A stretch of 50,219 bases of DNA from a virus: the IMG/VR virus record IMGVR_UViG_3300034198_009452, positions 1 through 50,219 of that record, one strand, 5' to 3'. Positions 32,260 to 43,557 of this stretch are shown here, piece after piece (the stretch's first letter is position 1; every line of letters begins with the position of its first letter). The notes under the pieces were generated by a model. It ran no database searches. It saw only the letters and a program-made list of their open reading frames with translations, and was not told the DNA's origin. Both the position numbers and the translations under genes were made by a program.

Positions 32260-33020
32260 CAAATAACTCTTGTTTTTTCGTGACCAACTCGTACACGTGG
32301 ATCGCACCAGATTTCAAATCCTGCTTCTTTTGCATCTAAACAGAAACTGACATCTTCTCCACACATATCTTGAACTTCGCCAGATTCAAAAACTTGCATC
32401 TTGGGTGCAAACCAAGGATACTTCATTTCAGAATTTTCAAATACTCCGTGCTTAATCAGTAACCAACCAAATCCCGTATAATCAACAGTAAATGGTTTGC
32501 GGCGCTTTGAGATTGTTTCAAGAGTTTCGTGATTCATGACTCCACCATTACCACGGAAATCTTCTTCATCTAACCAATGTGCAACGGATGTAGTCATACC
32601 ATCTTCGGTACAATACCACCCAGCAGCAATATCTTTGTCCATTAAGACTAACTGATAAAATTTTTCAGTGTTGAATACAATATCAGAGTCAATCCAAAGT
32701 TGCCAATCATAATTTAATTTTCCATCCCAAGGAAGTTGATCAGGTCCACGAAGAACGTTTGCCCCCAAACACTTACAACGGGCAAAATTCACCATGGAAC
32801 TATAATCTTGAGAAATTTGAATACTTGCCCCGTTCTGCACGAGATCGAAGCACATCTGCACGAAATTCTTCAAGAATGTATAAGAAACTCCTCTACCAGG
32901 AAGACAAAAAACAATTGATTTCCCACGAATAATTTCTCTTGCCTTTTCGTAATCAAATTCTGGTTCTGATGAAGTTGAGGCAACTGGTGCCTTTGCTTTT
33001 ACGGTAAATCCTTTAGACAT
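32259..33020 (-). CDS. Glycosyltransferase-like protein (GT-A type)
   Basis: 253 residues. An N-terminal strand IVFCLPGRGVSYTFLKNF (36-53) is followed by SQDYSSMVNFARCKCLGANV and the acidic metal-binding motif DSD (111-113) in WIDSDIVF, typical of GT-A fold nucleotide-sugar transferases. Later elements are GFGWLLIKHGVFE (about 183-195), GEDVSF (221-226, likely catalytic acid region) and His247 in VGHEK (possible third metal ligand). The sugar and acceptor cannot be told from sequence; DNA, virion or cell-envelope glycans are all possible. It heads a short operon with three small genes. Confidence 0.75.
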   Translation of the reverse strand: MSKGFTVKAKAPVASTSSEPEFDYEKAREIIRGKSIVFCLPGRGVSYTFLKNFVQMCFDLVQNGASIQISQDYSSMVNFARCKCLGANVLRGPDQLPWDGKLNYDWQLWIDSDIVFNTEKFYQLVLMDKDIAAGWYCTEDGMTTSVAHWLDEEDFRGNGGVMNHETLETISKRRKPFTVDYTGFGWLLIKHGVFENSEMKYPWFAPKMQVFESGEVQDMCGEDVSFCLDAKEAGFEIWCDPRVRVGHEKTRVI

Positions 33021-33077
33021 AATAGGAATAATTTTACTTCAGTATCATACAGTATTATGTATAAAATGTCAATTTCT

Positions 33078-33251
33078 CTAATTTTTGTTTTCTTTCAAAA
33101 TTATTTCATCTCCGTCGATCTTTAATTTTATTTCAGTATCTTCGTACCATGAAAATTCATTCACAATCCACTCGGGAATTATCACATAATACTGTCCACT
33201 CACAGGATCAACTTGCAATAACTGGCAGTCCTCTTCAAAGTTCTTCTTCAT
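33078..33251 (-). CDS. AbrB/MazE-like small protein
   Basis: 57 residues: starts MKKNFEEDCQLLQVDPVSGQ, then YYVIIPEWIVNEFSWYEDTE and IKLKIDGDEIILKE. The pattern of a short strand, an IPEW turn, then a strand ending in a DGDEI hairpin resembles the swapped-hairpin AbrB/MazE antitoxin DNA-binding fold, a resemblance by eye only. It is the last AT-rich gene before the GC-rich island. No toxin partner is visible beside it. Confidence 0.6.
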   Translation of the reverse strand: MKKNFEEDCQLLQVDPVSGQYYVIIPEWIVNEFSWYEDTEIKLKIDGDEIILKENKN

Positions 33252-33538
33252 TCCATTCTTTTTTACATTTTGTTTTATATAGTATATTTTAAAATTATAA
33301 GCGACCTGTGGGGGAATTTTTTATGGGGGAAATTTTTTTGGTTTGAGAGTATTATAAGTCTCATTTGGGTAACACTTTATAGATTAGGGGATCCATCGCT
33401 TTTAAGCCCACGCCCGCCGCCATAACGATACCGTTATACCATAATACTGCCATTTAGCACGAACGAACGGCATCACGCTATCGTTATACTGTGCTGCGCC
33501 ACGAACGAATGAAGGGGGGCGGTGTGCCCCCCGTGCCG
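33252..33538. other. Intergenic boundary between AT-rich and GC-rich regions
   Basis: 287 bases without a convincing gene. Base composition switches near 33,400 from AT-rich to GC-rich. It holds an inverted repeat with arms ATAACG / CGTTAT (33422-33437), two copies of CACGAACGAA (33458 and 33500), and a strong hairpin next to the first island gene. An open frame that crosses it on the minus strand is Arg/His-rich and looks like a shadow. Confidence 0.6.
33514..33532 (-). terminator. Hairpin after first island gene
   Basis: On the minus strand the stem GGGGGGC pairs with GCCCCCC across loop ACACC. It begins 6 bases after the stop codon of the gene at 33539 and is followed by a T-containing stretch (TTCATTCGTTCGT). 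A factor-independent terminator is likely, though the T-run is broken. Confidence 0.55.
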
Positions 33539-33730
33539 TCACTTCACGTCGCCCAGGGCGCTGTTGGCGGTGCTCATGCGGGTGGCGCTGCTGCCTGCTG
33601 CTCCGCCGTGAGTGCGAACGCGGGTGCTGCCGCCTTTGATCTGATTCGCCCAGCGGTTGGCACGGGTGCCGTGCGCCACGGGCAGGCGGGTGATGGTGAA
33701 CTGGATGCCGTCGATGGTGGTGCTGGTCAT
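33539..33730 (-). CDS. GC-rich island small protein
   Basis: 63 residues, basic, starting MTSTTIDGIQFTITRLPVAH and ending SANSALGDVK-like. It has no recognised domain. It is chosen over overlapping frames because its ATG follows a TTGACC-N17-TAGAAT promoter at the spacing seen across the island. The leader lacks a Shine-Dalgarno sequence. It is the most downstream gene of the series. Confidence 0.55.
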   Translation of the reverse strand: MTSTTIDGIQFTITRLPVAHGTRANRWANQIKGGSTRVRTHGGAAGSSATRMSTANSALGDVK

Positions 33731-33753
33731 GGTCGGTTGCGGTGTGCTCTGGA

Positions 33754-33790
33754 ATTCTACAGGGTGGAGGGGAGGGGGTCAACCCTCCCC
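33754..33790 (-). promoter_or_regulatory. Hairpin-promoter cassette for gene at 33730
   Basis: The -35 TTGACC (33782-33777) is exactly the loop of a perfect 8-bp hairpin (stem GGGGAGGG / CCCTCCCC, 33769-33790). After 17 bases comes the -10 TAGAAT (33759-33754). The hairpin lies 7 bases after the stop of the upstream gene. Confidence 0.75.
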
Positions 33791-33797
33791 GCAGGGG

Positions 33798-34043
33798 TCA
33801 GAAGTTGTCTGCCACGTCCCAGCGAACCACCTGCAGGTCGGGGTTGAGGCGGGCGCAGGTCTCCCATGCCTGCTGAGCGGTGGGTGCCATGTAGGCGAGG
33901 ATCTCATGGCGCTGGCGGCGGGTGTTCCAACCGCTGAACAGGAAGCTGTGCTCCTGCTCCTCAGCGAACACGTCCTCCCAATCCTGCTCGGTGGGGATGT
34001 ATGCCTCGTCGATCTGCTGCTGCTCGGTGAAGGCGGTGGTCAT
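33798..34043 (-). CDS. GC-rich island hypothetical protein
   Basis: 81 residues, acidic and Gln/Trp-rich: MTTAFTEQQQIDEAYIPTEQ at the N-terminus, FLFSGWNTRRQRHEILAYMA in the middle, then APTAQQAWETCARLNPDLQV. The second half, with an aromatic strand followed by an Ala-rich helix, reads like a small single-domain fold. The ATG at 34043 is preferred over a longer frame because the longer one runs through the promoter. No function is known. Confidence 0.65.
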   Translation of the reverse strand: MTTAFTEQQQIDEAYIPTEQDWEDVFAEEQEHSFLFSGWNTRRQRHEILAYMAPTAQQAWETCARLNPDLQVVRWDVADNF

Positions 34044-34067
34044 GGCGTTCAGGTGTGGAACTTGTTC

Positions 34068-34103
34068 AGTATAGCAGGTCGGGGGCACCCGTCAAGGTGC
34101 CCC
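34068..34103 (-). promoter_or_regulatory. Hairpin-promoter cassette for gene at 34043
   Basis: The -35 TTGACG is the 6-base loop of a perfect hairpin (stem GGGGCACC / GGTGCCCC, 34082-34103), with spacer 16 and -10 TATACT (34073-34068). The leader AACAAGTTCCACACCTGA leads to ATG. Confidence 0.8.
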
Positions 34104-34111
34104 GTAGGGAA

Positions 34112-34303
34112 TCAGTATCCCAACCAGGTCAGCAGTTCGCCAGCGTCGATGCCGTCGATGCCCCAGCGGTCAGCGGTGCCGTACTCCTGCAGGAACTCAT
34201 TCACGCTGCCGTGAAGGTCGGCAGCATACAGGGCGTCGTCATAGGTGATGCACCCGCAGTCGTCAGCGATGTGCAGCAGTTGCTCGGTGAAGGTCTCAGG
34301 CAT
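34112..34303 (-). CDS. GC-rich island hypothetical protein
   Basis: 63 residues, acidic: MPETFTEQLLHIADDCGCIT, YDDALYAADLHGSVNEFLQE, YGTADRWGIDGIDAGELLTW. It appears mainly helical. No recognised domain. It has its own cassette promoter and is followed by the cassette of the next gene, so it is probably a single-gene transcription unit. Confidence 0.65.
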   Translation of the reverse strand: MPETFTEQLLHIADDCGCITYDDALYAADLHGSVNEFLQEYGTADRWGIDGIDAGELLTWLGY

Positions 34304-34327
34304 GGTTCCCTTGCGGTGTACTCCAGA

Positions 34328-34365
34328 ATTCTACAGGGTGGGTGGGGCACCCGTCAAGGTGCCCC
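34328..34365 (-). promoter_or_regulatory. Hairpin-promoter cassette for gene at 34303
   Basis: The same perfect stem GGGGCACC / GGTGCCCC with loop TTGACG (34344-34365) serves as the -35. The spacer is 18 and the -10 is TAGAAT (34333-34328). Confidence 0.75.
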
Positions 34366-34372
34366 GTAGGGG

Positions 34373-34537
34373 TCACCAGAGCAGGTCAGCGATTGCTTCC
34401 AGGCGCTGCTGGCGGGATACCAGCTCCTTCAAGATGGCCCGCTCCTCCTTGGCGGTGGGGTTGCCTTCCCACAGCCACTCCTCCAGTTGGAAGGAGGTCA
34501 GGTCGTCGAAGGCGGTGGCGATGGTTCCGTCCAGCAT
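34373..34537 (-). CDS. GC-rich island hypothetical protein
   Basis: 54 residues, acidic and helical: MLDGTIATAFDDLTSFQLEE, WLWEGNPTAKEERAILKELV, then SRQQRLEAIADLLW. The ATG at 34537 is chosen because the longer frame would run through a promoter. No function recognised. Confidence 0.6.
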   Translation of the reverse strand: MLDGTIATAFDDLTSFQLEEWLWEGNPTAKEERAILKELVSRQQRLEAIADLLW

Positions 34538-34562
34538 GGGGTGGGGTGCGGTTTGCTTTGGA

Positions 34563-34597
34563 ATTCTACAGGGTCGGGGGCAGGAGGTCAACCCTCC
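34563..34597 (-). promoter_or_regulatory. Degenerate hairpin-promoter for gene at 34537
   Basis: -35 TTGACC, spacer 17, -10 TAGAAT (34568-34563). The hairpin is reduced to a 5-bp stem (GGAGG / CCTCC). The TGA stop of the upstream gene lies inside the -35 hexamer. Confidence 0.6.
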
Positions 34598-34767
34598 AGG
34601 GGCACCACGTCGTCGGCGTAGCGTTCGGCGTAACGTGCTGCCCACCAGTACCCTTCGGCAGGGTTGATCTGTCCAGCGAAGCGGGACTGAGGAGCATCGT
34701 CAGTCTTACGGGCAACCCACATGGTTTCGCGGGTCTGAAGGTCGGAGCACTGTGAGAAGATCGCCAT
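34588..34767 (-). CDS. GC-rich island hypothetical protein
   Basis: 59 residues: MAIFSQCSDLQTRETMWVAR, KTDDAPQSRFAGQINPAEGY, then WWAARYAERYADDVVPLEG. Its TGA stop is shared with the -35 box of the next promoter. A run of 13 C (coding strand) lies immediately before ATG. A promoter is unclear: -10-like TACAGT (34802-34797) has no good -35, so read-through from the exported-protein gene upstream is possible. Confidence 0.55.
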   Translation of the reverse strand: MAIFSQCSDLQTRETMWVARKTDDAPQSRFAGQINPAEGYWWAARYAERYADDVVPLEG

Positions 34768-34780
34768 GGGGGGGGGGGGG
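34768..34780 (-). repeat. C13 homopolymer abutting a start codon
   Basis: Thirteen consecutive C on the coding strand lie directly upstream of the ATG at 34767. Such tracts are prone to slippage, so the length of this leader may vary between genomes or be a sequencing or assembly artefact. Confidence 0.7.
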
Positions 34781-34807
34781 TGTCGGTTGCTTGGGTACTG
34801 TAGCAGG

Positions 34808-34963
34808 TCAGCGGCGCTCACCACACCAGGCAGGGTCGGCGCTGCACATAGCGTCTGCCATGCGCTCCTGGTGATCGTTGACCGTTGCCTGGGCGGAGTT
34901 GTGAACAGCAGTGCCGATGATCAGGGTCAGAGCGGCGAAGGCGGCAGGCAGAATGCGGATCAT
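34808..34963 (-). CDS. Small exported protein with signal peptide
   Basis: 51 residues. A classical signal peptide is visible: MIRILPAAFAALTLIIGTAV, then HNSAQA with probable cleavage after AQA (residue 26). The mature part is only about 25 residues, with two Cys (MCSADPAWCGERR) that could form a disulphide in the periplasm. The start follows the same GACACCCC-type leader as the gene at 34767. An export role fits a small envelope or superinfection factor, but function is unknown. Confidence 0.6.
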   Translation of the reverse strand: MIRILPAAFAALTLIIGTAVHNSAQATVNDHQERMADAMCSADPAWCGERR

Positions 34964-35000
34964 GGGGATGGGGTGTCGGTTGCTTGGGTACTGTAGCAGG

Positions 35001-35186
35001 TCAGAAGTGAACTGCCCAGTTCGGATCGGTCAGGCAGTTCACCCAGGCGCACCAGGTGCCGTTGCTGCTCACGCAAAACAGGTCGTTGCCCTGGCGCTGC
35101 TCAACCACAACCACGGGGTCGCCTGCCATCTGGTTTGCCAGGCGGTTCTTCGCCTTGGCAGAGATGGGGGTCAGGGTCACGGTCAT
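35001..35186 (-). CDS. GC-rich island conserved small protein
   Basis: 61 residues: MTVTLTPISAKAKNRLANQM, AGDPVVVVEQRQGNDLFCVS, then SNGTWCAWVNCLTDPNWAVHF. A short basic helix precedes a beta-meander containing three Cys and three Trp. I recognise the NRLAN...VVVEQ style from cyanobacterial and cyanophage hypotheticals, without function. It has a strong cassette promoter. Confidence 0.65.
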   Translation of the reverse strand: MTVTLTPISAKAKNRLANQMAGDPVVVVEQRQGNDLFCVSSNGTWCAWVNCLTDPNWAVHF

Positions 35187-35208
35187 CGGATCGGTTGCGG
35201 TTGAGAGA

Positions 35209-35246
35209 ACTATAGTCTATGGGTGGGGAGGGGGTCAACCCTCCCC
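35209..35246 (-). promoter_or_regulatory. Hairpin-promoter cassette for gene at 35186
   Basis: Perfect stem GGGGAGGG / CCCTCCCC (35225-35246) with loop TTGACC as -35. Spacer 18; -10 TATAGT (35214-35209). The leader ends CAACCGCAACCGATCCG before ATG. Confidence 0.75.
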
Positions 35247-35261
35247 GTAGGGTTCAATGCC

Positions 35262-35480
35262 TCAAGCGGCACTGAGAGTTTGCTCTACCCACTCATCAAA
35301 CTGAGTGATGAGAATCGCACACACTTTCGGGTACGCTTTTTGAAATTCGGATTTGATACCCATCTCAAGGGCAATCTTGCGCGCTTCGGTGTATTCCATA
35401 CGACCAAGCTGTGCCAGGGTGGGATACTCTCCACGGGCGATCATCGCTTCGATTTCGGCGTTGGTGAGGATGGTGGTCAT
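35262..35480 (-). CDS. GC-rich island hypothetical protein
   Basis: 72 residues: MTTILTNAEIEAMIARGEYP, TLAQLGRMEYTEARKIALEM, GIKSEFQKAYPKVCAILITQ, ending FDEWVEQTLSAA. Predicted all-helical. The frame is also open upstream to an ATG 2 bases after the -10, adding 15 residues, but that start lies too close to the promoter to be transcribed. Function unknown. Confidence 0.65.
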   Translation of the reverse strand: MTTILTNAEIEAMIARGEYPTLAQLGRMEYTEARKIALEMGIKSEFQKAYPKVCAILITQFDEWVEQTLSAA

Positions 35481-35526
35481 GGTGCTGGTGGGATTGTGGG
35501 GGGTCCGTTTGCCCCCCGATGACATC

Positions 35527-35562
35527 AGTATAGCAGGTCGGGGGCAGGCGTCAACCTGCCCC
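35527..35562 (-). promoter_or_regulatory. Hairpin-promoter cassette for gene at 35480
   Basis: Perfect stem GGGGCAGG / CCTGCCCC (35541-35562), loop TTGACG as -35, spacer 16, -10 TATACT (35532-35527). The leader that follows can fold a second G6/C6 hairpin and is duplicated before the gene at 36680. Confidence 0.8.
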
Positions 35563-35569
35563 GTGAGGA

Positions 35570-35836
35570 TCAGATCCTCTCCAGATCACCGTGCTGCAGA
35601 GCACGGTGGAGCAGGCGACCCCAGGAGGTTGCCTCCCGTGCCTCAGGATCCTGCAGGAGGTCAGTCCAGCGAACAGCAGCGCCGTGATCCTCAAAGGCGA
35701 AGCGGTATTCGGTGCTGCTGCTGGTGTAGGTCACCAGCAGGTCGAAGGTGCCCTGCAGGGCACCTGGCACGATCGCCAGGTGGGAGATGGCGCTGCTGTT
35801 CACTGAGGCGGCGGCGATGGCGGTTGCGGTGGTCAT
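35570..35836 (-). CDS. Small protein, possibly KTSC-like
   Basis: 88 residues. After an Ala/Ser-rich start (MTTATAIAAASVNSSAISHL), the sequence TFDLLVTYTSSSTEYRFAFE and a later WGRLLHRALQHGDLERI loosely follow the strand-strand-helix layout of KTSC domains. The match is weaker than that of the gene at 38298. It has its own cassette promoter. Function unknown. Confidence 0.6.
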   Translation of the reverse strand: MTTATAIAAASVNSSAISHLAIVPGALQGTFDLLVTYTSSSTEYRFAFEDHGAAVRWTDLLQDPEAREATSWGRLLHRALQHGDLERI

Positions 35837-35860
35837 CGGATCGGTTGCGGTTGCTTGCTA

Positions 35861-35897
35861 ATGGTAGTCGGTAAAGGGGCAGGCGTCAACCTGCCCC
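35861..35897 (-). promoter_or_regulatory. Hairpin-promoter cassette for gene at 35836
   Basis: Perfect stem GGGGCAGG / CCTGCCCC (35876-35897) with loop TTGACG as -35, spacer 17, -10 TACCAT (35866-35861). Confidence 0.7.
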
Positions 35898-35904
35898 GTA
35901 GGGT

Positions 35905-36117
35905 TCAGGGTGTGGGATCGTATCCGTCGATGATCTCATTAACCGCAGCAGTCGGGGTCATACCCTCTAGGAAGCGATCCAGCAGAGCGTCCAGCGCCCA
36001 TCCGTGGTCAGCGGATCCCATGATCCGCTCAACGTAGTCATCCTCACAGATCATGCCGTAGGCAGCATCCCAGAAGGTGCAAAAGTCTTGGGAGTCGAAG
36101 CAGTTGTCGGTGGTCAT
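35905..36117 (-). CDS. GC-rich island acidic protein
   Basis: 70 residues, strongly acidic: MTTDNCFDSQDFCTFWDAAY, GMICEDDYVERIMGSADHGW, ALDALLDRFLEGMTPTAAVN, ending EIIDGYDPTP. Small acidic phage proteins often inhibit host nucleic-acid-binding enzymes, but nothing specific supports that here. No domain recognised. Confidence 0.65.
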   Translation of the reverse strand: MTTDNCFDSQDFCTFWDAAYGMICEDDYVERIMGSADHGWALDALLDRFLEGMTPTAAVNEIIDGYDPTP

Positions 36118-36143
36118 GGTCGGTTCAGGTGTGAACTGGAATC

Positions 36144-36179
36144 AGTATAGCAGGTCGGGGGCACCCGTCAAGGTGCCCC
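36144..36179 (-). promoter_or_regulatory. Hairpin-promoter cassette for gene at 36117
   Basis: Perfect stem GGGGCACC / GGTGCCCC (36158-36179), loop TTGACG as -35, spacer 16, -10 TATACT (36149-36144). It is nearly identical to the cassette at 34068-34103. Confidence 0.8.
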
Positions 36180-36186
36180 GTAGGGT

Positions 36187-36411
36187 TCAAACGGCAACCC
36201 AGTAGGATTTGCCGTTGCGCTCCTGCTGCTCTGCCATGATAAAGGCGCCGCTGCTCTGGCAAGCCCGCCATCCTTGCACCTGGTAGTAGCAGTCCTCCAG
36301 GGTGCTGGCGTAGGCAAGGGTGCGGGCGATCTTACCTCCCTTCACGAACGCCACCGCGAACGGGTAGCGGGTGGGGGAGAGGATCGTCTGCAGGGGGGTG
36401 GGGTCGATCAT
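36187..36411 (-). CDS. GC-rich island hypothetical protein
   Basis: 74 residues: MIDPTPLQTILSPTRYPFAV, AFVKGGKIARTLAYASTLED, CYYQVQGWRACQSSGAFIMA, ending NGKSYWVAV. The order strand, helix, strand suggests a small alpha/beta fold, similar in layout to the gene at 36680 (a strand, an Asn/Thr turn, then a helix with Ala/Cys). It has a hairpin but no recognisable -35. Confidence 0.65.
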   Translation of the reverse strand: MIDPTPLQTILSPTRYPFAVAFVKGGKIARTLAYASTLEDCYYQVQGWRACQSSGAFIMAEQQERNGKSYWVAV

Positions 36412-36434
36412 CGGTTCAGGTGTGGAACTTGTTC

Positions 36435-36469
36435 AGTGTAGCAGGTCAGGGGCACCCTGGGGGTGCCCC
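36435..36469 (-). promoter_or_regulatory. Hairpin with lost -35 before gene at 36411
   Basis: The stem GGGGCACC / GGTGCCCC is intact (36449-36469), but the loop is CCCAG instead of TTGACG. The -10 is TACACT (36440-36435). Promoter strength is doubtful; the hairpin is conserved. Confidence 0.55.
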
Positions 36470-36476
36470 GTAGGGG

Positions 36477-36680
36477 TCAGGCAGCGAGGCGGTGGTTCAC
36501 AGTGTAGGACTGTTTGCTGTTCAGATCCTGCTGGAGAACCATGGCGTAGTCAAGGAAGCGGGACTCCTCCTCCATCTTACGGGCGCAGGCGATGGCAGCA
36601 TCGCGGTCGCTGAAGGTGCGGAGGGTGCTGGCGTTCTCACCGCCCTGGTTGTATCCGCCGATCACGATGTAGATGGTCAT
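36477..36680 (-). CDS. GC-rich island hypothetical protein
   Basis: 67 residues: MTIYIVIGGYNQGGENASTL, RTFSDRDAAIACARKMEEES, RFLDYAMVLQQDLNSKQSYT, ending VNHRLAA. It looks like a short beta-alpha-beta fold of the kind that handles a strand-turn-helix (IVIGGYNQGG). Its leader of about 45 bases is identical to that of the gene at 35480. Function unknown. Confidence 0.65.
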   Translation of the reverse strand: MTIYIVIGGYNQGGENASTLRTFSDRDAAIACARKMEEESRFLDYAMVLQQDLNSKQSYTVNHRLAA

Positions 36681-36726
36681 GGTGCTGGTGGGATTGTGGG
36701 GGGTCCGTTTGCCCCCCGATGACATC

Positions 36727-36796
36727 AGTATAGCAGATCAGGGGGCAAAGGGGAGGGTCGGAACCCTCCGCTGTGCCGCCTAGCGGGTCGGCACAG
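36727..36796 (-). promoter_or_regulatory. Two hairpins and -10 box before gene at 36680
   Basis: The -10 TATACT (36732-36727) lacks a clear -35. Upstream are a 6-bp stem GGAGGG / CCCTCC (36752-36769) and an 8-bp stem CTGTGCCG / CGGCACAG (36771-36796), the latter directly after the stop of the gene at 36802 and terminator-like without a T-run. Confidence 0.5.
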
Positions 36797-36801
36797 TGTG
36801 A

Positions 36802-36951
36802 TCAGAAGTCGATGGCGTCAAGTGTAGGGTCTGCGCCACATTCAGCAGATTCGTCAACACTATCCCCCAGAACAAGAGTGTCAAGAATTTGCAGGATTTG
36901 TGCGCCGTTGTCACCAGAGCGGAGGAGAGAAAGCGCAAGGTCGCGGGTCAT
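36802..36951 (-). CDS. Conserved small cyanophage/cyanobacterial protein
   Basis: 49 residues: MTRDLALSLLRSGDNGAQIL, QILDTLVLGDSVDESAECGA, ending DPTLDAIDF. The N-terminal helix pair (LSLLRSGDNGAQILQILDTL) is a pattern I recognise from many short cyanophage proteins of unknown function. The acidic tail is disordered-looking. It follows the gene at 37169 by 56 bases and has no clear promoter of its own. Confidence 0.65.
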   Translation of the reverse strand: MTRDLALSLLRSGDNGAQILQILDTLVLGDSVDESAECGADPTLDAIDF

Positions 36952-37007
36952 CGTAGAGTTTGCAATTGGGTAGAGTGGCAGTCTTTAGGGCGCTGCCGTT
37001 CCTTTGC

Positions 37008-37169
37008 TCATCGCTCTAGTTGTGCCAGAGATGAAGGAGCGATGTGGGAAGGAGATCCACAGGAGCGGTAGAACTCAACCATCCGATCTGCCTCCTCCTT
37101 GGTTGTGAACCACTGTGAGCGCCACTCACAGGAGTTGTAAGGGGTCTGATAGCGAACTTCAAAGCGCAT
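37008..37169 (-). CDS. GC-rich island small protein
   Basis: 53 residues: MRFEVRYQTPYNSCEWRSQW, FTTKEEADRMVEFYRSCGSP, ending SHIAPSSLAQLER. A strand, a Trp-rich turn and a helix with EEADRMVEFYRS suggest a small alpha/beta domain like those that begin with a parse-and-flag strand (FEVRYQTPY). The ATG follows the shared leader AACAAGTTCCACACCTGA, which supports the start. Function unknown. Confidence 0.6.
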   Translation of the reverse strand: MRFEVRYQTPYNSCEWRSQWFTTKEEADRMVEFYRSCGSPSHIAPSSLAQLER

Positions 37170-37193
37170 GGCGTTCAGGTGTGGAACTTGTTC

Positions 37194-37226
37194 AGTGTAG
37201 CACGGGAAGGGGGCAGTGGTGCCCCC
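37194..37226 (-). promoter_or_regulatory. Hairpin and -10 before gene at 37169
   Basis: Stem GGGGGCA / TGCCCCC with loop CCAC (37209-37226); -10 TACACT (37199-37194). No TTGAC -35. The standard leader follows. Confidence 0.5.
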
Positions 37227-37234
37227 CGTAGGGT

Positions 37235-37501
37235 TCAGAAGTCAAACACGTCGCCGTTGATCTCTGCACGGTTGATCTCTGGGTCGTTCCACATCACGCC
37301 ATCAGGGGTTTGAATGCTGCCGTGATCATACAGTGCCTCTAGCAGTTCTTCATAACAGCAAACGTCATTCTCCTGGATGAAGTTGTGAATGCTTTCATCA
37401 TTCTCAATCCAGAGCACTACATTCCAGGTTTTGTAGTTAGTCCATTCGTTGCAGGTAACATCGAACAGATCGGTCTGGTGAGTGCGGGTTGCGGTTGCCA
37501 T
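37235..37501 (-). CDS. Phage protein with NYKTWNV motif
   Basis: 88 residues: the central WTNYKTWNVVLWIENDESIH is a widespread phage motif (I associate it with a DUF7249-type family), followed by an acidic half with CCYEELLEALYD and ending NGDVFDF. The family has no firm function. The leader contains four tandem ACACC units (37521-37502) directly before ATG in place of the usual leader end. Fairly sure of the family, not of the role. Confidence 0.75.
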   Translation of the reverse strand: MATATRTHQTDLFDVTCNEWTNYKTWNVVLWIENDESIHNFIQENDVCCYEELLEALYDHGSIQTPDGVMWNDPEINRAEINGDVFDF

Positions 37502-37531
37502 GGTGTGGTGTGGTGTGGTGTGAACTTGTTC

Positions 37532-37565
37532 AGTATAGCATGGGAAGGGGGCAGGGTGTGCCCCC
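37532..37565 (-). promoter_or_regulatory. Hairpin and -10 before gene at 37501
   Basis: Stem GGGGGCA / TGCCCCC with loop CACCC (37547-37565), -10 TATACT (37537-37532). There is no TTGAC -35 in the loop. Confidence 0.5.
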
Positions 37566-37573
37566 CAGGGCGA

Positions 37574-37750
37574 TCAGATGGCGCTGGTGCCCTTGCTCAC
37601 CCAGAGCGCCAGGCGCATGGTGGATGCCTTGCTCACCTGCTGGGCGGTGCGCCCGTGGGCGATGGCAGCAGTCTTCAGGCACTGGCGCTTGGCATCGGCG
37701 TTGCCCACCAGGATCATGCGGGCGTTCTGGAGGAGTTGCTGCTGGGTCAT
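37574..37750 (-). CDS. GC-rich island basic helical protein
   Basis: 58 residues: MTQQQLLQNARMILVGNADA, KRQCLKTAAIAHGRTAQQVS, ending ALWVSKGTSAI. It is basic and helical; a segment near ARTAQQVSKAS-type residues 34-44 is reminiscent of a helix-turn-helix half but too short to call. It has the shared leader start (GAACAAGTTC). Confidence 0.6.
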   Translation of the reverse strand: MTQQQLLQNARMILVGNADAKRQCLKTAAIAHGRTAQQVSKASTMRLALWVSKGTSAI

Positions 37751-37776
37751 GATCGGTTCGGGTGTTGAACTTGTTC

Positions 37777-37811
37777 AGTGTAGCACGGGGGTGGGGGTGC
37801 CCAGCACCCCC
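37777..37811 (-). promoter_or_regulatory. Hairpin and -10 before gene at 37750
   Basis: Stem GGGGGTGC / GCACCCCC with loop TGG (37793-37811); -10 TACACT (37782-37777). No -35 found. Confidence 0.5.
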
Positions 37812-37818
37812 AGGGAGA

Positions 37819-37992
37819 TCAGGCGGTGATCTCCATCCACTTCTGCTCGTCGCGGTAGATCACCACGGGAGCGCCGCCGAGTTCGATGCTCCAGTCGAAG
37901 GCAACGTCCACAGCGTGCTCCTCGCTGGTGAAGAACTCCGCGTGGTCGATGCCAGTGCCCTTGGGGGCGGCGCTCCAGGAGATGAAGGTCAT
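37819..37992 (-). CDS. GC-rich island small protein
   Basis: 57 residues: MTFISWSAAPKGTGIDHAEF, FTSEEHAVDVAFDWSIELGG, ending VIYRDEQKWMEITA. A strand, an acidic helix and two strands form a plausible small alpha/beta unit, with WMEIT at the end like genes that end on a strand. The -10 TATACT (38023-38018) and shared leader precede it; no clean hairpin loop or -35. Confidence 0.6.
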   Translation of the reverse strand: MTFISWSAAPKGTGIDHAEFFTSEEHAVDVAFDWSIELGGAPVVIYRDEQKWMEITA

Positions 37993-38073
37993 GTCGGTTC
38001 AGGTGTGGAACTTGTTCAGTATACAGGCGCCCTGGCGGGGGAAAGGGGGCAGCATGTGCCACCCCCAGGATCG

Positions 38074-38298
38074 TCACACGGTGGCAGGCACCTGGGTGAG
38101 TTGATCGCCACGGATTGCCAGGTTGATAAACTTACCCACGGAGTCCTCGTTTTCGATCACCAGGTTGAGATCGGCAACGAACTCTGCAGGATCGGTCACG
38201 TTGTAGGTATAGTCACGCCCACCATTGAAGGTAACAGTCACTTGACCGTTCTGCACTTCGCTGATGTTTTCGATGGCGCTGGATTGGAACTTGAACAT
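38074..38298 (-). CDS. KTSC-domain-like protein
   Basis: 74 residues: MFKFQSSAIENISEVQNGQV, TVTFNGGRDYTYNVTDPAEF, VADLNLVIENEDSVGKFINL, ending AIRGDQLTQVPATV. SSAI near the start, the GRDYTYNV strand and the SVGKFINLAIR helix fit the KTSC domain, a small fold named for its conserved KTSC residues and found in phages and in lysyl-tRNA synthetase fusions. Its biochemical role is not settled. It has its own promoter and a 60-base leader rich in A/T near ATG. Confidence 0.7.
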   Translation of the reverse strand: MFKFQSSAIENISEVQNGQVTVTFNGGRDYTYNVTDPAEFVADLNLVIENEDSVGKFINLAIRGDQLTQVPATV

Positions 38299-38366
38299 GA
38301 TGTTAAAAAAGTAAAGGGTTGAGTGAAGTGTTTTGAGCGGGATGCTTCACCCCCGCTGATGTGATC

Positions 38367-38395
38367 AGTATGGCACGGATTGGGGGTGGGGTCAA
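38367..38395 (-). promoter_or_regulatory. Promoter for KTSC-like gene
   Basis: -35 TTGACC (38395-38390), spacer 17, -10 CATACT (38372-38367). The TTGA of the -35 is also the tetraloop of a GGGG/CCCC hairpin, a reduced version of the island cassette. Confidence 0.65.
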
Positions 38396-38421
38396 CCCCC
38401 GGTGTGCCAGTTGTCAGATCG

Positions 38422-38595
38422 TCACCCCTCTAGCAGTTCGGGGTAGTATTCTTTCACTTCTTCGGTCAATTCTTCATCAGAATACTTTGCGTAACCTTCT
38501 TCGAGGTAGTCATAACAGAGTAGGGTCATAGTCTTGAGGTCCATGTCATCCAGCATCTGCTGAATGAGAGCATCTTGCAGTTCAGAACGGTTCAT
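38422..38595 (-). CDS. Small acidic operon protein
   Basis: 57 residues: MNRSELQDALIQQMLDDMDL, KTMTLLCYDYLEEGYAKYSD, ending EELTEEVKEYYPELLEG. All-helical and acidic. Its ATG overlaps the preceding stop (TGATG), and it is the last gene of a four-gene coupled operon. The SELQDALIQQMLDDMDLKTM start is a style common in cyanophage small genes. Function unknown. Confidence 0.65.
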   Translation of the reverse strand: MNRSELQDALIQQMLDDMDLKTMTLLCYDYLEEGYAKYSDEELTEEVKEYYPELLEG

Positions 38596-38741
38596 CAGAT
38601 CTCATCCCTCATTTTGGTAAGTTTGTCATACAGAAGCGGAATGTCCGCCTCTGTAAGTTCAGTCAGGTAGCACCAATCGCTACTGTCAAGAATTGCCATC
38701 AGGGCATCCAGTTCCTGATAGTTGAGGTGTGTGAGTGTCAC
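38595..38741 (-). CDS. Small operon protein (GTG start)
   Basis: 48 residues from GTG: TLTHLNYQELDALMAILDSS after the start, then DWCYLTELTEADIPLLYDKL, ending TKMRDEI. A start at an ATG 36 bases upstream would overlap the previous gene by 40 bases; GTG gives the 4-base GTGA overlap typical of this operon, so I prefer it. Helical. Function unknown. Confidence 0.6.
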   Translation of the reverse strand: MTLTHLNYQELDALMAILDSSDWCYLTELTEADIPLLYDKLTKMRDEI

Positions 38742-38866
38742 TTGCGTAGTGGAGAATTGAAGTAACGAGTGAAGCATAGCACCAGGATGATGCCAGTGGA
38801 GAGGACACCAACCAGTCCGAGAACTGTCACAGTGTCGCCAGTGAAAGTGTAGGTATCAGGTGTCAT
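38738..38866 (-). CDS. Small single-pass membrane protein
   Basis: 42 residues: MTPDTYTFTGDTVTVLGLVG then VLSTGIILVLCFTRYFNSPL. Residues 13-32 are a clear transmembrane segment; the short C-terminal end is basic. The ATG overlaps the upstream stop (TGATG). It could be a holin-like or accessory membrane peptide but has no diagnostic feature. Confidence 0.6.
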   Translation of the reverse strand: MTPDTYTFTGDTVTVLGLVGVLSTGIILVLCFTRYFNSPLRK

Positions 38867-39015
38867 CAGAAAGTGTAGTTACTGTTGAGCATTTGGATGA
38901 AGTTCGCGTCAATTTCACCATCCTCGATGAACTTGCTGCGATCAAAATCTTCGGGGATAATGTCAAAGATCTCTTCATCAGCAGAGTCTTCGATCTCAAA
39001 GAAGTAGGTGTCCAT
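38866..39015 (-). CDS. Small acidic operon protein
   Basis: 49 residues: MDTYFFEIEDSADEEIFDII, PEDFDRSKFIEDGEIDANFI, ending QMLNSNYTF. Very acidic, no Lys-rich region. It is the first gene of the four-gene coupled operon (39015-38422). An upstream hairpin (stem GGGCACC / GGTGCCC, loop GTGA, 39055-39072) is a cassette relic without a proper -35. Function unknown. Confidence 0.65.
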   Translation of the reverse strand: MDTYFFEIEDSADEEIFDIIPEDFDRSKFIEDGEIDANFIQMLNSNYTF

Positions 39016-39751: not shown

Positions 39752-39780
39752 AAAAAAGGCAGGGTCACCACTCCCTGCCT
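39752..39780 (-). terminator. Intrinsic terminator after tRNA-Leu
   Basis: On the minus strand an 8-bp stem AGGCAGGG / CCCTGCCT is followed directly by TTTTTT. It lies 106 bases after the tRNA 3' end and is the best classical intrinsic terminator in this region. Confidence 0.75.
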
Positions 39781-39886
39781 CATTATCACCTTGTTCCTAT
39801 CTTCTTTGATATAATCACCACGTACCTATGTGTATGATATAACCACTCTCGCGTGTATGGGTGGTGATTGTCTCAAACCACCCAAG

Positions 39887-40613: not shown

Positions 40614-40648
40614 AATGTAGCAGGGTTTGGGGGGCATGTCAACCCCCC
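40614..40648 (-). promoter_or_regulatory. Hairpin-promoter cassette for ArdA-like gene
   Basis: Stem GGGGGG / CCCCCC (40629-40648) with loop TTGACATG holding the -35 TTGACA, spacer 17, -10 TACATT (40619-40614). The leader ACATTTGTTC is shared with the gene at 40934. Confidence 0.75.
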
Positions 40649-42810: not shown

Positions 42811-43557
42811 ATGTCAAGAGGCATAATCTACCTAATCACCAATAAAGAAAATGGTCTACGTTATGTGGGAAGCACTCTACAACCCATGAACAAAGAATGG
42901 CAATCTCACATACAATCTGCCAATAAAATGTCCTCTGAACCACTACACAGAGCATTTCGTCAATATGGTATACATCGTTTTGGTATACAAGAACTGGATG
43001 AATGTGATGAAAAAGAATTAGATGAAAGAAGAGAACACTGGATACGTCACTATAACACATATGATGGAGAGAACTATAACTTTAGATCATTTGAAGAAGA
43101 GGAAGATAATGAAGATGATATCGTCCCTATCATAAAAGAGAATACTATTCAACCTCATCAAATAAAACACTTAAGATCATTTACAGATGAAGATCGTAAA
43201 AAGATCAATCGCAATGGACATAAGGTACAAGGTATATGCATTGAAACAGGTGAAATTAAAACATGGAATTCTGCGGCAAAAGCAGCAGAAGAAGTAACTG
43301 GTAACATAAGAAAGAATTCAAATATAATAATCTGTGCCCGTAACTGTTATAACTGTTATGGATATAAATGGTCACTAATAGAAGAAAAGAATAAACTACG
43401 TCCCATTATTGGTATCAATAAAAAAACGGGGAGAATAGGTCCCCGTTATGATAGCGTTCGTCAAGGTATGATAGAACTTGGTGGTATGAGTTTATTAAAG
43501 AGTTTAAAAAACCCTGGGCGTTATAGTTATAGAGGTTTCTATTGGTATTATATCTAA
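42811..43557 (+). CDS. GIY-YIG homing endonuclease
   Basis: 248 residues. The N-terminal catalytic module has GIIYLITNKENGLRYVGSTL (residues 4-23), the GIY...YVG pair, followed by a conserved Arg/Glu helical region (QELDECDEKELDERREHW, about 70-87) that supplies the active-site Glu. The C-terminal half has two NUMOD-like DNA-binding repeats: VQGICIETGEIKTWNSAAKA near 145-165 and IIGINKKTGRIGPRYDSV near 203-220. It is the only plus-strand gene, opposite to all neighbours, and its end overlaps the neighbouring convergent gene by 4 bases. Free-standing homing endonucleases of this type spread into T4-like genomes. Confidence 0.88.
   Translation: MSRGIIYLITNKENGLRYVGSTLQPMNKEWQSHIQSANKMSSEPLHRAFRQYGIHRFGIQELDECDEKELDERREHWIRHYNTYDGENYNFRSFEEEEDNEDDIVPIIKENTIQPHQIKHLRSFTDEDRKKINRNGHKVQGICIETGEIKTWNSAAKAAEEVTGNIRKNSNIIICARNCYNCYGYKWSLIEEKNKLRPIIGINKKTGRIGPRYDSVRQGMIELGGMSLLKSLKNPGRYSYRGFYWYYI

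Follow-up and report, generated by a model that had tools for sequence, protein, structure and literature searches.

In the 50,219-bp IMG/VR virus record IMGVR_UViG_3300034198_009452, analysed over its whole length and referred to here as the window, small genes on the minus strand are separated by cassettes in which the -35 hexamer of a sigma-70-like promoter forms the loop of a GC-rich hairpin. Each cassette is probably a nested joint that links two transcription units of one gene each and combines the promoter of the downstream gene and the 3′-end hairpin of the upstream gene in one element. The window carries T4-like genes for head closure, baseplate and tail, and its DNA matches come from Synechococcus phages, mostly Kyanoviridae. 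GC content is about 30% across most of the window and rises to 54–61% at 33–39 kb (33000-39000), in the island that holds the cassettes.

At the DNA level, a cassette would drive the downstream gene as a sigma-70 promoter, with a -35 of TTGAC(G/C), a spacer of 16–18 nt, a -10 box of TATACT or TAGAAT and a start codon about 24 nt further on. In RNA initiated at an upstream promoter, it would form a GC hairpin about 7 nt past the stop codon, and this hairpin would set or shield the 3′ terminus of the upstream transcript. Placing the -35 within the loop would fit both signals into about 45 bp. We infer promoter activity and 3′-end formation from the arrangement described below, which would give cyanophages a concrete design for packing transcript end and promoter into one hairpin, with genes that can be swapped without loss of expression.

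Nested Cassettes in the Window

Seven cassettes between 33754 and 36179, proposed in an earlier sequence-only reading, are all present on the minus strand, each with a perfect 8-bp stem, a TTGACC or TTGACG loop and a -10 box 16–18 nt downstream. The loop is TTGACC in cassettes 1 and 4, where the hairpin is GGGGAGGG-TTGACC-CCCTCCCC. Cassette 1 (33754-33790) has its hairpin at 33769-33790, its -35 at 33777-33782 and the -10 box TAGAAT at 33754-33759, and its RNA has a minimum free energy (MFE) of -19.0 kcal/mol; in cassette 4 (35209-35246) the hairpin lies at 35225-35246, the -35 at 35233-35238 and the -10 box TATAGT at 35209-35214. The loop is TTGACG in cassettes 2, 3, 5, 6 and 7. The hairpin GGGGCACC-TTGACG-GGTGCCCC is found in cassette 2 (34068-34103; hairpin 34082-34103, -35 34090-34095, extended -10 TGCTATACT with TATACT ending at 34068), cassette 3 (34328-34365; hairpin 34344-34365, -35 34352-34357, TAGAAT 34328-34333) and cassette 7 (36144-36179; hairpin 36158-36179, -35 36166-36171, extended -10 TGCTATACT with TATACT ending at 36144), while GGGGCAGG-TTGACG-CCTGCCCC is found in cassette 5 (35527-35562; hairpin 35541-35562, -35 35549-35554, extended -10 TGCTATACT with TATACT ending at 35527) and cassette 6 (35861-35897; hairpin 35876-35897, -35 35884-35889, weak -10 TACCAT 35861-35866). 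Predicted RNA folding energies of the island cassettes run from -15 to -20 kcal/mol. As judged by sequence, -35 and -10 hexamers 16–18 nt apart and ahead of a start codon are those of a sigma-70 promoter.

The island holds nine promoters whose -35 sits in a loop closed by a GC stem of 6 bp or longer, against none in 200 dinucleotide shuffles, and promoter-like sites in the 33.4–43.5 kb region number 31, against 10.7 ± 3.2 in the shuffles. A strict criterion that TTGAC be unpaired in the MFE fold undercounts such elements, because wobble pairing occurs between U and G within UUGACG. An island of about 60% GC inside a genome of about 30% GC, with G-rich and then C-rich stretches, might be expected to fold and to hold promoter-like words by chance, and G/C skew alone does account for part of the pairing. 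The probability we give to such a composition artefact is negligible, as not one such element arose in the 200 dinucleotide shuffles, which in our view already refute it, and AT-rich marine genomes carry the same design.

Conserved Anatomy in Relatives

Relatives in IMG/VR were initially sought with the pattern GGGG-N-CCCC-N-GACCTGCTATACT, which is blind to the loop and inner stem and returned 17 stretches; after later scans the set comprised 206 distinct cassettes from 52 contigs. Stems with TTGAC loops, for which a search of related genomes had been suggested, are present in 82 of the 206. The order in relatives is stop codon, about 7 nt, hairpin, -10 box, about 24 nt and ATG. Seven nucleotides is the most frequent distance from stop to stem, the spacing from TTGAC to the -10 box is 16–18 nt in 73 of the 82 TTGAC cassettes, and the -10 box lies 22–27 nt from the start codon in 171 of 206. 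At loci not chosen by their loop, with bait cassettes excluded, TTGAC occupies 33 of 67 loops against about 0.3 expected, and all 206 leaders, between the -10 box and the start, are free of it. The overlap of hairpin and -35 predicts a cost to the promoter: among the 82 TTGAC cassettes, just four have the consensus A as the sixth base of the -35, and 72 have C or G.

In the other 124 of the 206 loops (60%) TTGAC is absent, yet the hairpin and the -10 box are kept, which suggests that the hairpin has a role of its own. The hairpin alone might then matter, as a 3′-end stabiliser of the repetitive extragenic palindromic (REP) type beside accidental promoter look-alikes, and in Escherichia coli trimmed 3′ ends are indeed marked by GC hairpins with C-rich, U-poor tails (PMC13289151). 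Such an account is unlikely in view of the TTGAC motif in about half of the unselected loops, the narrow spacing of the -10 box from both the -35 and the start codon, and the retention of the -10 box in non-TTGAC cassettes, 44% of which have an extended TG.

Pairing of the Stems

The sequence-only reading also held that pairing is kept while the stem sequence varies, and looked to related genomes for compensatory base changes. Among GGGGCACC, GGGGCAGG and GGGGAGGG both partners do change together, and paired stem changes are found in the relatives. In alignment A2, which contains 13 island cassettes, both sides have changed at four of the eight pairs, and there are 14 double-change cells against 3.8 after shuffling (0 of 500 shuffles). 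Within the same flanks, two pairs are swapped between GGGGCAGG/CCTGCCCC in contigs L010, L015 and L220 and GGGGCACC/GGTGCCCC in L227, and the stem of a given gene's promoter frequently differs between orthologues while always remaining paired. The commonest stem form has constant outer GGGG/CCCC and inner bases that vary freely, still paired.

An inverted repeat over the -35 could also be a DNA operator, through which a dimeric regulator turns small early genes on or off as one regulon; many promoters have a palindrome centred on the -35, and in the commonest form the outer GGGG/CCCC does not vary. We consider this very unlikely, since the inner bases are free to vary as long as pairing stays, the half-site spacing is inconstant with loops of 3–10 nt, and the unrelated stems of marine phages (AGCACTCC, AGAGGGGC and AAAGGGCC), with their U-tracts, point to an RNA hairpin rather than to a single protein.

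Beyond the 124 loops without TTGAC, several observations weigh against the reading of the cassettes as nested joints. The 100% of cells that are paired in alignment A2 are so partly by choice, because its rows were selected as TTGAC hairpins. In the TAGAAT class, which came from a stem-blind scan, pairing in fixed register reaches 5.14 of 8 against 4.73 ± 0.12 in a re-paired null, a modest excess, since a G-rich left arm and a C-rich right arm would pair in any case. Exchange of whole cassettes, instead of base-by-base compensation, can produce paired changes. Two further joints of the island have a -10 box and no hairpin (34797-34802 and 34990-34995), and a U-tract follows the stem in none of the 82 TTGAC cassettes, whose tail is C-rich. 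The identity of loop and -35 therefore holds at the seven original sites and fails as a universal rule, the island having both non-TTGAC loops and joints without a hairpin.

Marine Cyanophage Counterparts

A short match in phage S-SM2 reads GGGCACC-TTGACG-GGTGCCC-TTTTTT, and an element of ACG-2014e reads AGCACTCC-TTGACG-GGAGTGCT-TTTTTATTG-TATACT. These two led to a scan for the marine form without any stem condition (TTGACG-N8-TTTTT-N3-5-TATACT), which gave at least 77 distinct matches. Among the matches listed, the -35 is enclosed by a perfect stem of 6 bp or longer in 23 of 77, whereas re-pairing of arms from different matches yields such a stem in about 3%. The stems are diverse (AGAGGGGC, AAAGGGGC, AAAGGACCTC, AAAGGGCC, AGCACTCC and ATAAGGCTGC), with a U-tract after each. 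Lying between stem and -10 box, this tract would turn the hairpin into a canonical terminator, so that the marine form is a predicted terminator whose loop is a -35.

Isolates with the marine nested form are S-CAM1, where it lies before an hli gene upstream of psbA, ACG-2014d, where it lies before hli, and Syn1, S-RIM44 and ACG-2014e/i, where it lies around psbD and purC. The form thus flanks psbA, psbD, hli and purC, and may bear on the expression and movement of these auxiliary genes. In an orthologous marine series a G-C stem pair has become C-G in four of 10 members with TTTTTTATTGTAT unchanged. In some members the -35 is degenerate (TTGCAC, ATCACA), which suggests that hairpin and -10 box are conserved more strictly than the -35.

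Related arrangements were seen alongside. S-SM2 has a second nested element (L032, 11217), CAACACC-CTTGACA-GGTGTTG with TATACT at 17 nt, just ahead of an annotated helicase gene. DSL-LC02 carries CCCCTTGACAG-ATC-CTGTCAAGGGG-TTTATAGTAT (L031, about 31551, minus strand), in which a perfect -35 lies in a stem arm and is followed by TTTATAGT, with the -10 box at 17 nt, another mode of overlapping hairpin and promoter signals. Hairpins of the type GGGGGCAACTGG..CCAGTTGACGCCCCC in the IMG/VR contigs L042, L054, L112 and L113 carry the -35 on the 3′ side of the stem, yet another overlap geometry. A G(G/T/A)CAC word abuts the 5′ side of the stem in 70 of the 206 cassettes and recurs in marine forms (GTGGCACA and TGTCACA; S-SM2 L032 and S-RIM12 L160).

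Role of the Hairpin in RNA

That the hairpin ends the upstream transcript, as first proposed, is not supported for the island form. Its cassettes lack the U-tract, whereas other parts of the window (39756-39781 and 43425-43447) and the marine forms do have U-tract terminators; the 8 nt past the stem contain, on average over all cassettes, 3.6 C and 2.0 T. Measured against a canonical intrinsic terminator, the island element has the GC hairpin shortly past the stop codon and no U-tract, with a loop that is a promoter element, whereas the marine counterparts have both hairpin and U-tract. In Synechococcus elongatus the U-tract governs termination strength and many 3′ ends are non-canonical, and cyanobacteria have no Rho and 3′ ends that are mostly unexplained (PMC13289151), which makes phage hairpins without a U-tract a useful test case. 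The island cassettes resemble REP-type hairpins and the 3′ ends without U-tracts of E. coli and cyanobacteria in their GC hairpin, C-rich tail and possible protection from exonucleases (PMC13289151), but differ in occurring once per gene and at a fixed geometry to a promoter. Because the U-tract is missing, pausing, partial termination or exonuclease protection of the 3′ end is favoured as the RNA role of the island hairpin, and true termination for the marine form.

It had also been argued that RNA hairpin and DNA promoter exclude each other in the same orientation. This has no support, as transcription from an upstream promoter makes the RNA hairpin while the DNA promoter stays double-stranded; extrusion of a DNA cruciform is the sole state that would exclude the promoter.

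Comparison With Known Elements

Promoter-early stem-loop (PeSL) cassettes, which occur in RB49, phi1 and further T4-type phages, were reportedly named in phages RB49 and phi1, by Arbiol in 2010 and Comeau in 2014 (as cited in PMC4503421). Their anatomy was taken here directly from the RB49 genome sequence (100 kb), in which U-tract hairpins with a nearby promoter all have that promoter after the stem and none in the loop; in the convincing cases the -35 lies 16–32 nt past the stem. No U-tract hairpin with an adjacent promoter was found in S-PM2 (1–50 kb) or KVP40 (1–30 kb), and PeSL-like elements are described as sparse in cyanophage S-PM2 (PMC4503421). The cassettes are PeSL-like, as the sequence-only reading suggested, in combining a hairpin with an early promoter of sigma-70 type between small variable genes, at joints of gene-content shuffling. 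They share with PeSLs the exchange of neighbours, seen in the variable partners of gene families, but not the tandem layout of terminator and promoter: in the cyanophage element the loop of the hairpin contains the -35, and in its island form the U-tract is missing. The nested -35 was rightly thought unusual, given this difference from RB49, although its marine counterparts mean that it is not peculiar to the window's phage. Among the composite cassettes of promoter and terminator known from T4-type phages, the cyanophage element is thus a putative nested variant, and new as such. Lambdoid morons likewise consist of a lone gene with its own promoter and terminator and a GC content unlike that of the genome (PMC1524935), whereas in the cassettes promoter and hairpin overlap, are shared by neighbours and stand in long arrays.

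Probable Gene Shuffling at the Joints

The proposed association with gene shuffling agrees with the variable neighbours seen across cassette joints, from which we infer recombination there. At least two downstream partners, and up to seven, are found for 33 of 93 upstream gene families, and at least two upstream partners, and up to 10, for 31 of 86 downstream families. Gene order varies among the window, L009, L010, L015, L017 and L024, and cassettes occupy the joints; it is there that the order changes between relatives, as in PeSL-mediated shuffling.

The cassettes might instead be mainly a recombining or spreading repeat, in which hairpin and promoter persist through self-copying or as homology between modules. 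Besides the shuffled partners, near-identical cassettes stand at most joints of L024 and of L011/L012, as if homogenised, and identical hairpins are more frequent within contigs (15%) than between them (8%). We think this improbable as the main explanation: very different stems and loops share one anatomy, which argues for selection on the architecture and not copying alone, and the marine elements are singletons at orthologous places near psbA, psbD, hli and purC.

If the cassettes are nested joints, the promoter could be a chimera made at the joint, with the -35 coming from the end hairpin of the upstream gene and the -10 box and leader from the downstream gene, a possibility we hold only tentatively. 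The window and L017 share the gene at 35570-35836 with its end TGATCCTCAC-GGGGCAGG-TTGACG-CCTGCCCC and differ in -10 box and next gene, which in this one example would place a crossover between the hairpin and the -10 box. Spacer, -10 box and leader track the downstream gene (family-weighted identity of 0.510 vs 0.377). For the hairpin, family-weighted identity is 0.605 with the upstream and 0.567 with the downstream gene, with overlapping intervals; pairwise counts had hinted that it travels mainly with the upstream gene, and the family-weighted counts did not confirm this. Were the promoter such a chimera, a crossover anywhere in the hairpin or spacer would restore a 3′ end together with a working promoter.

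Further Cassettes and Genes of the Island

Additional elements, all on the minus strand, were absent from the sequence-only reading. A degenerate cassette at 34563-34597 has the -35 TTGACC (34586-34591), the -10 box TAGAAT (34563-34568) and a remaining 5-bp stem, GGAGG-GTTGA-CCTCC, for which the counterpart in the relative L021 is GGAGGG-TTGACC-CCCTCC. Nested elements with other stems lie at 38367-38400 (GGGGGT-TGACCCC-ACCCCC; -35 TTGACC 38390-38395 with its first T within the stem, -10 CATACT 38367-38372) and 40614-40648 (GGGGGG-TTGACATG-CCCCCC; perfect -35 TTGACA 40637-40642, -10 TACATT 40614-40619). Five cassettes keep hairpin and -10 box with loops of CCA, TCCG, CCAC, CACCC and TGG: that at 36435-36469 has the hairpin GGGGCACCC-CCA-GGGTGCCCC (36449-36469) and the extended -10 TGCTACACT (hexamer 36435-36440), and the other hairpins are GGAGGGT-TCCG-ACCCTCC (36752-36769; TATACT 26 nt past the loop), GGGGGCA-CCAC-TGCCCCC (37209-37226; then TGCTACACT), GGGGGCA-CACCC-TGCCCCC (37547-37565; then TGCTATACT) and TGGGGGTGC-TGG-GCACCCCCA (37792-37812; then TGCTACACT). 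The joints at 34735-34830 and 34960-35030 share TGACCTGCTACAGTACCCAAGCAACCGACACC, in which the stop codon TGA runs directly into the -10 region with no hairpin between, and they resemble deletion forms of the cassette.

An Rfam search of the region gave no model match at the cassettes. Compared with phage isolates, the island DNA has short gene matches only and the island form occurs in none of them; S-SRM01 and DSL-LC02 have gene arrays at the same place beside baseplate genes, but without this form. Origin from a host element is not evident, as GGGGCTTGACGCCCC followed by TTTT gave 24 scattered matches in cellular genomes, none titled as a cyanobacterium. The array of single-gene units spans 33539-36725 on the minus strand, with cassettes between genes of about 55–96 codons, nearly all without a known family. 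In composition, the stretch at 33000-39000, with its small genes of unknown function, looks foreign or host-like. Thirteen consecutive G residues (C in the coding strand) at 34768-34780, immediately before a start codon, may form a phase-variable or sequencing-prone tract. The C-terminal part of the open reading frame at 40121-40777 matches PHROG anti-restriction families (phrog_36653, E 1.6e-14).

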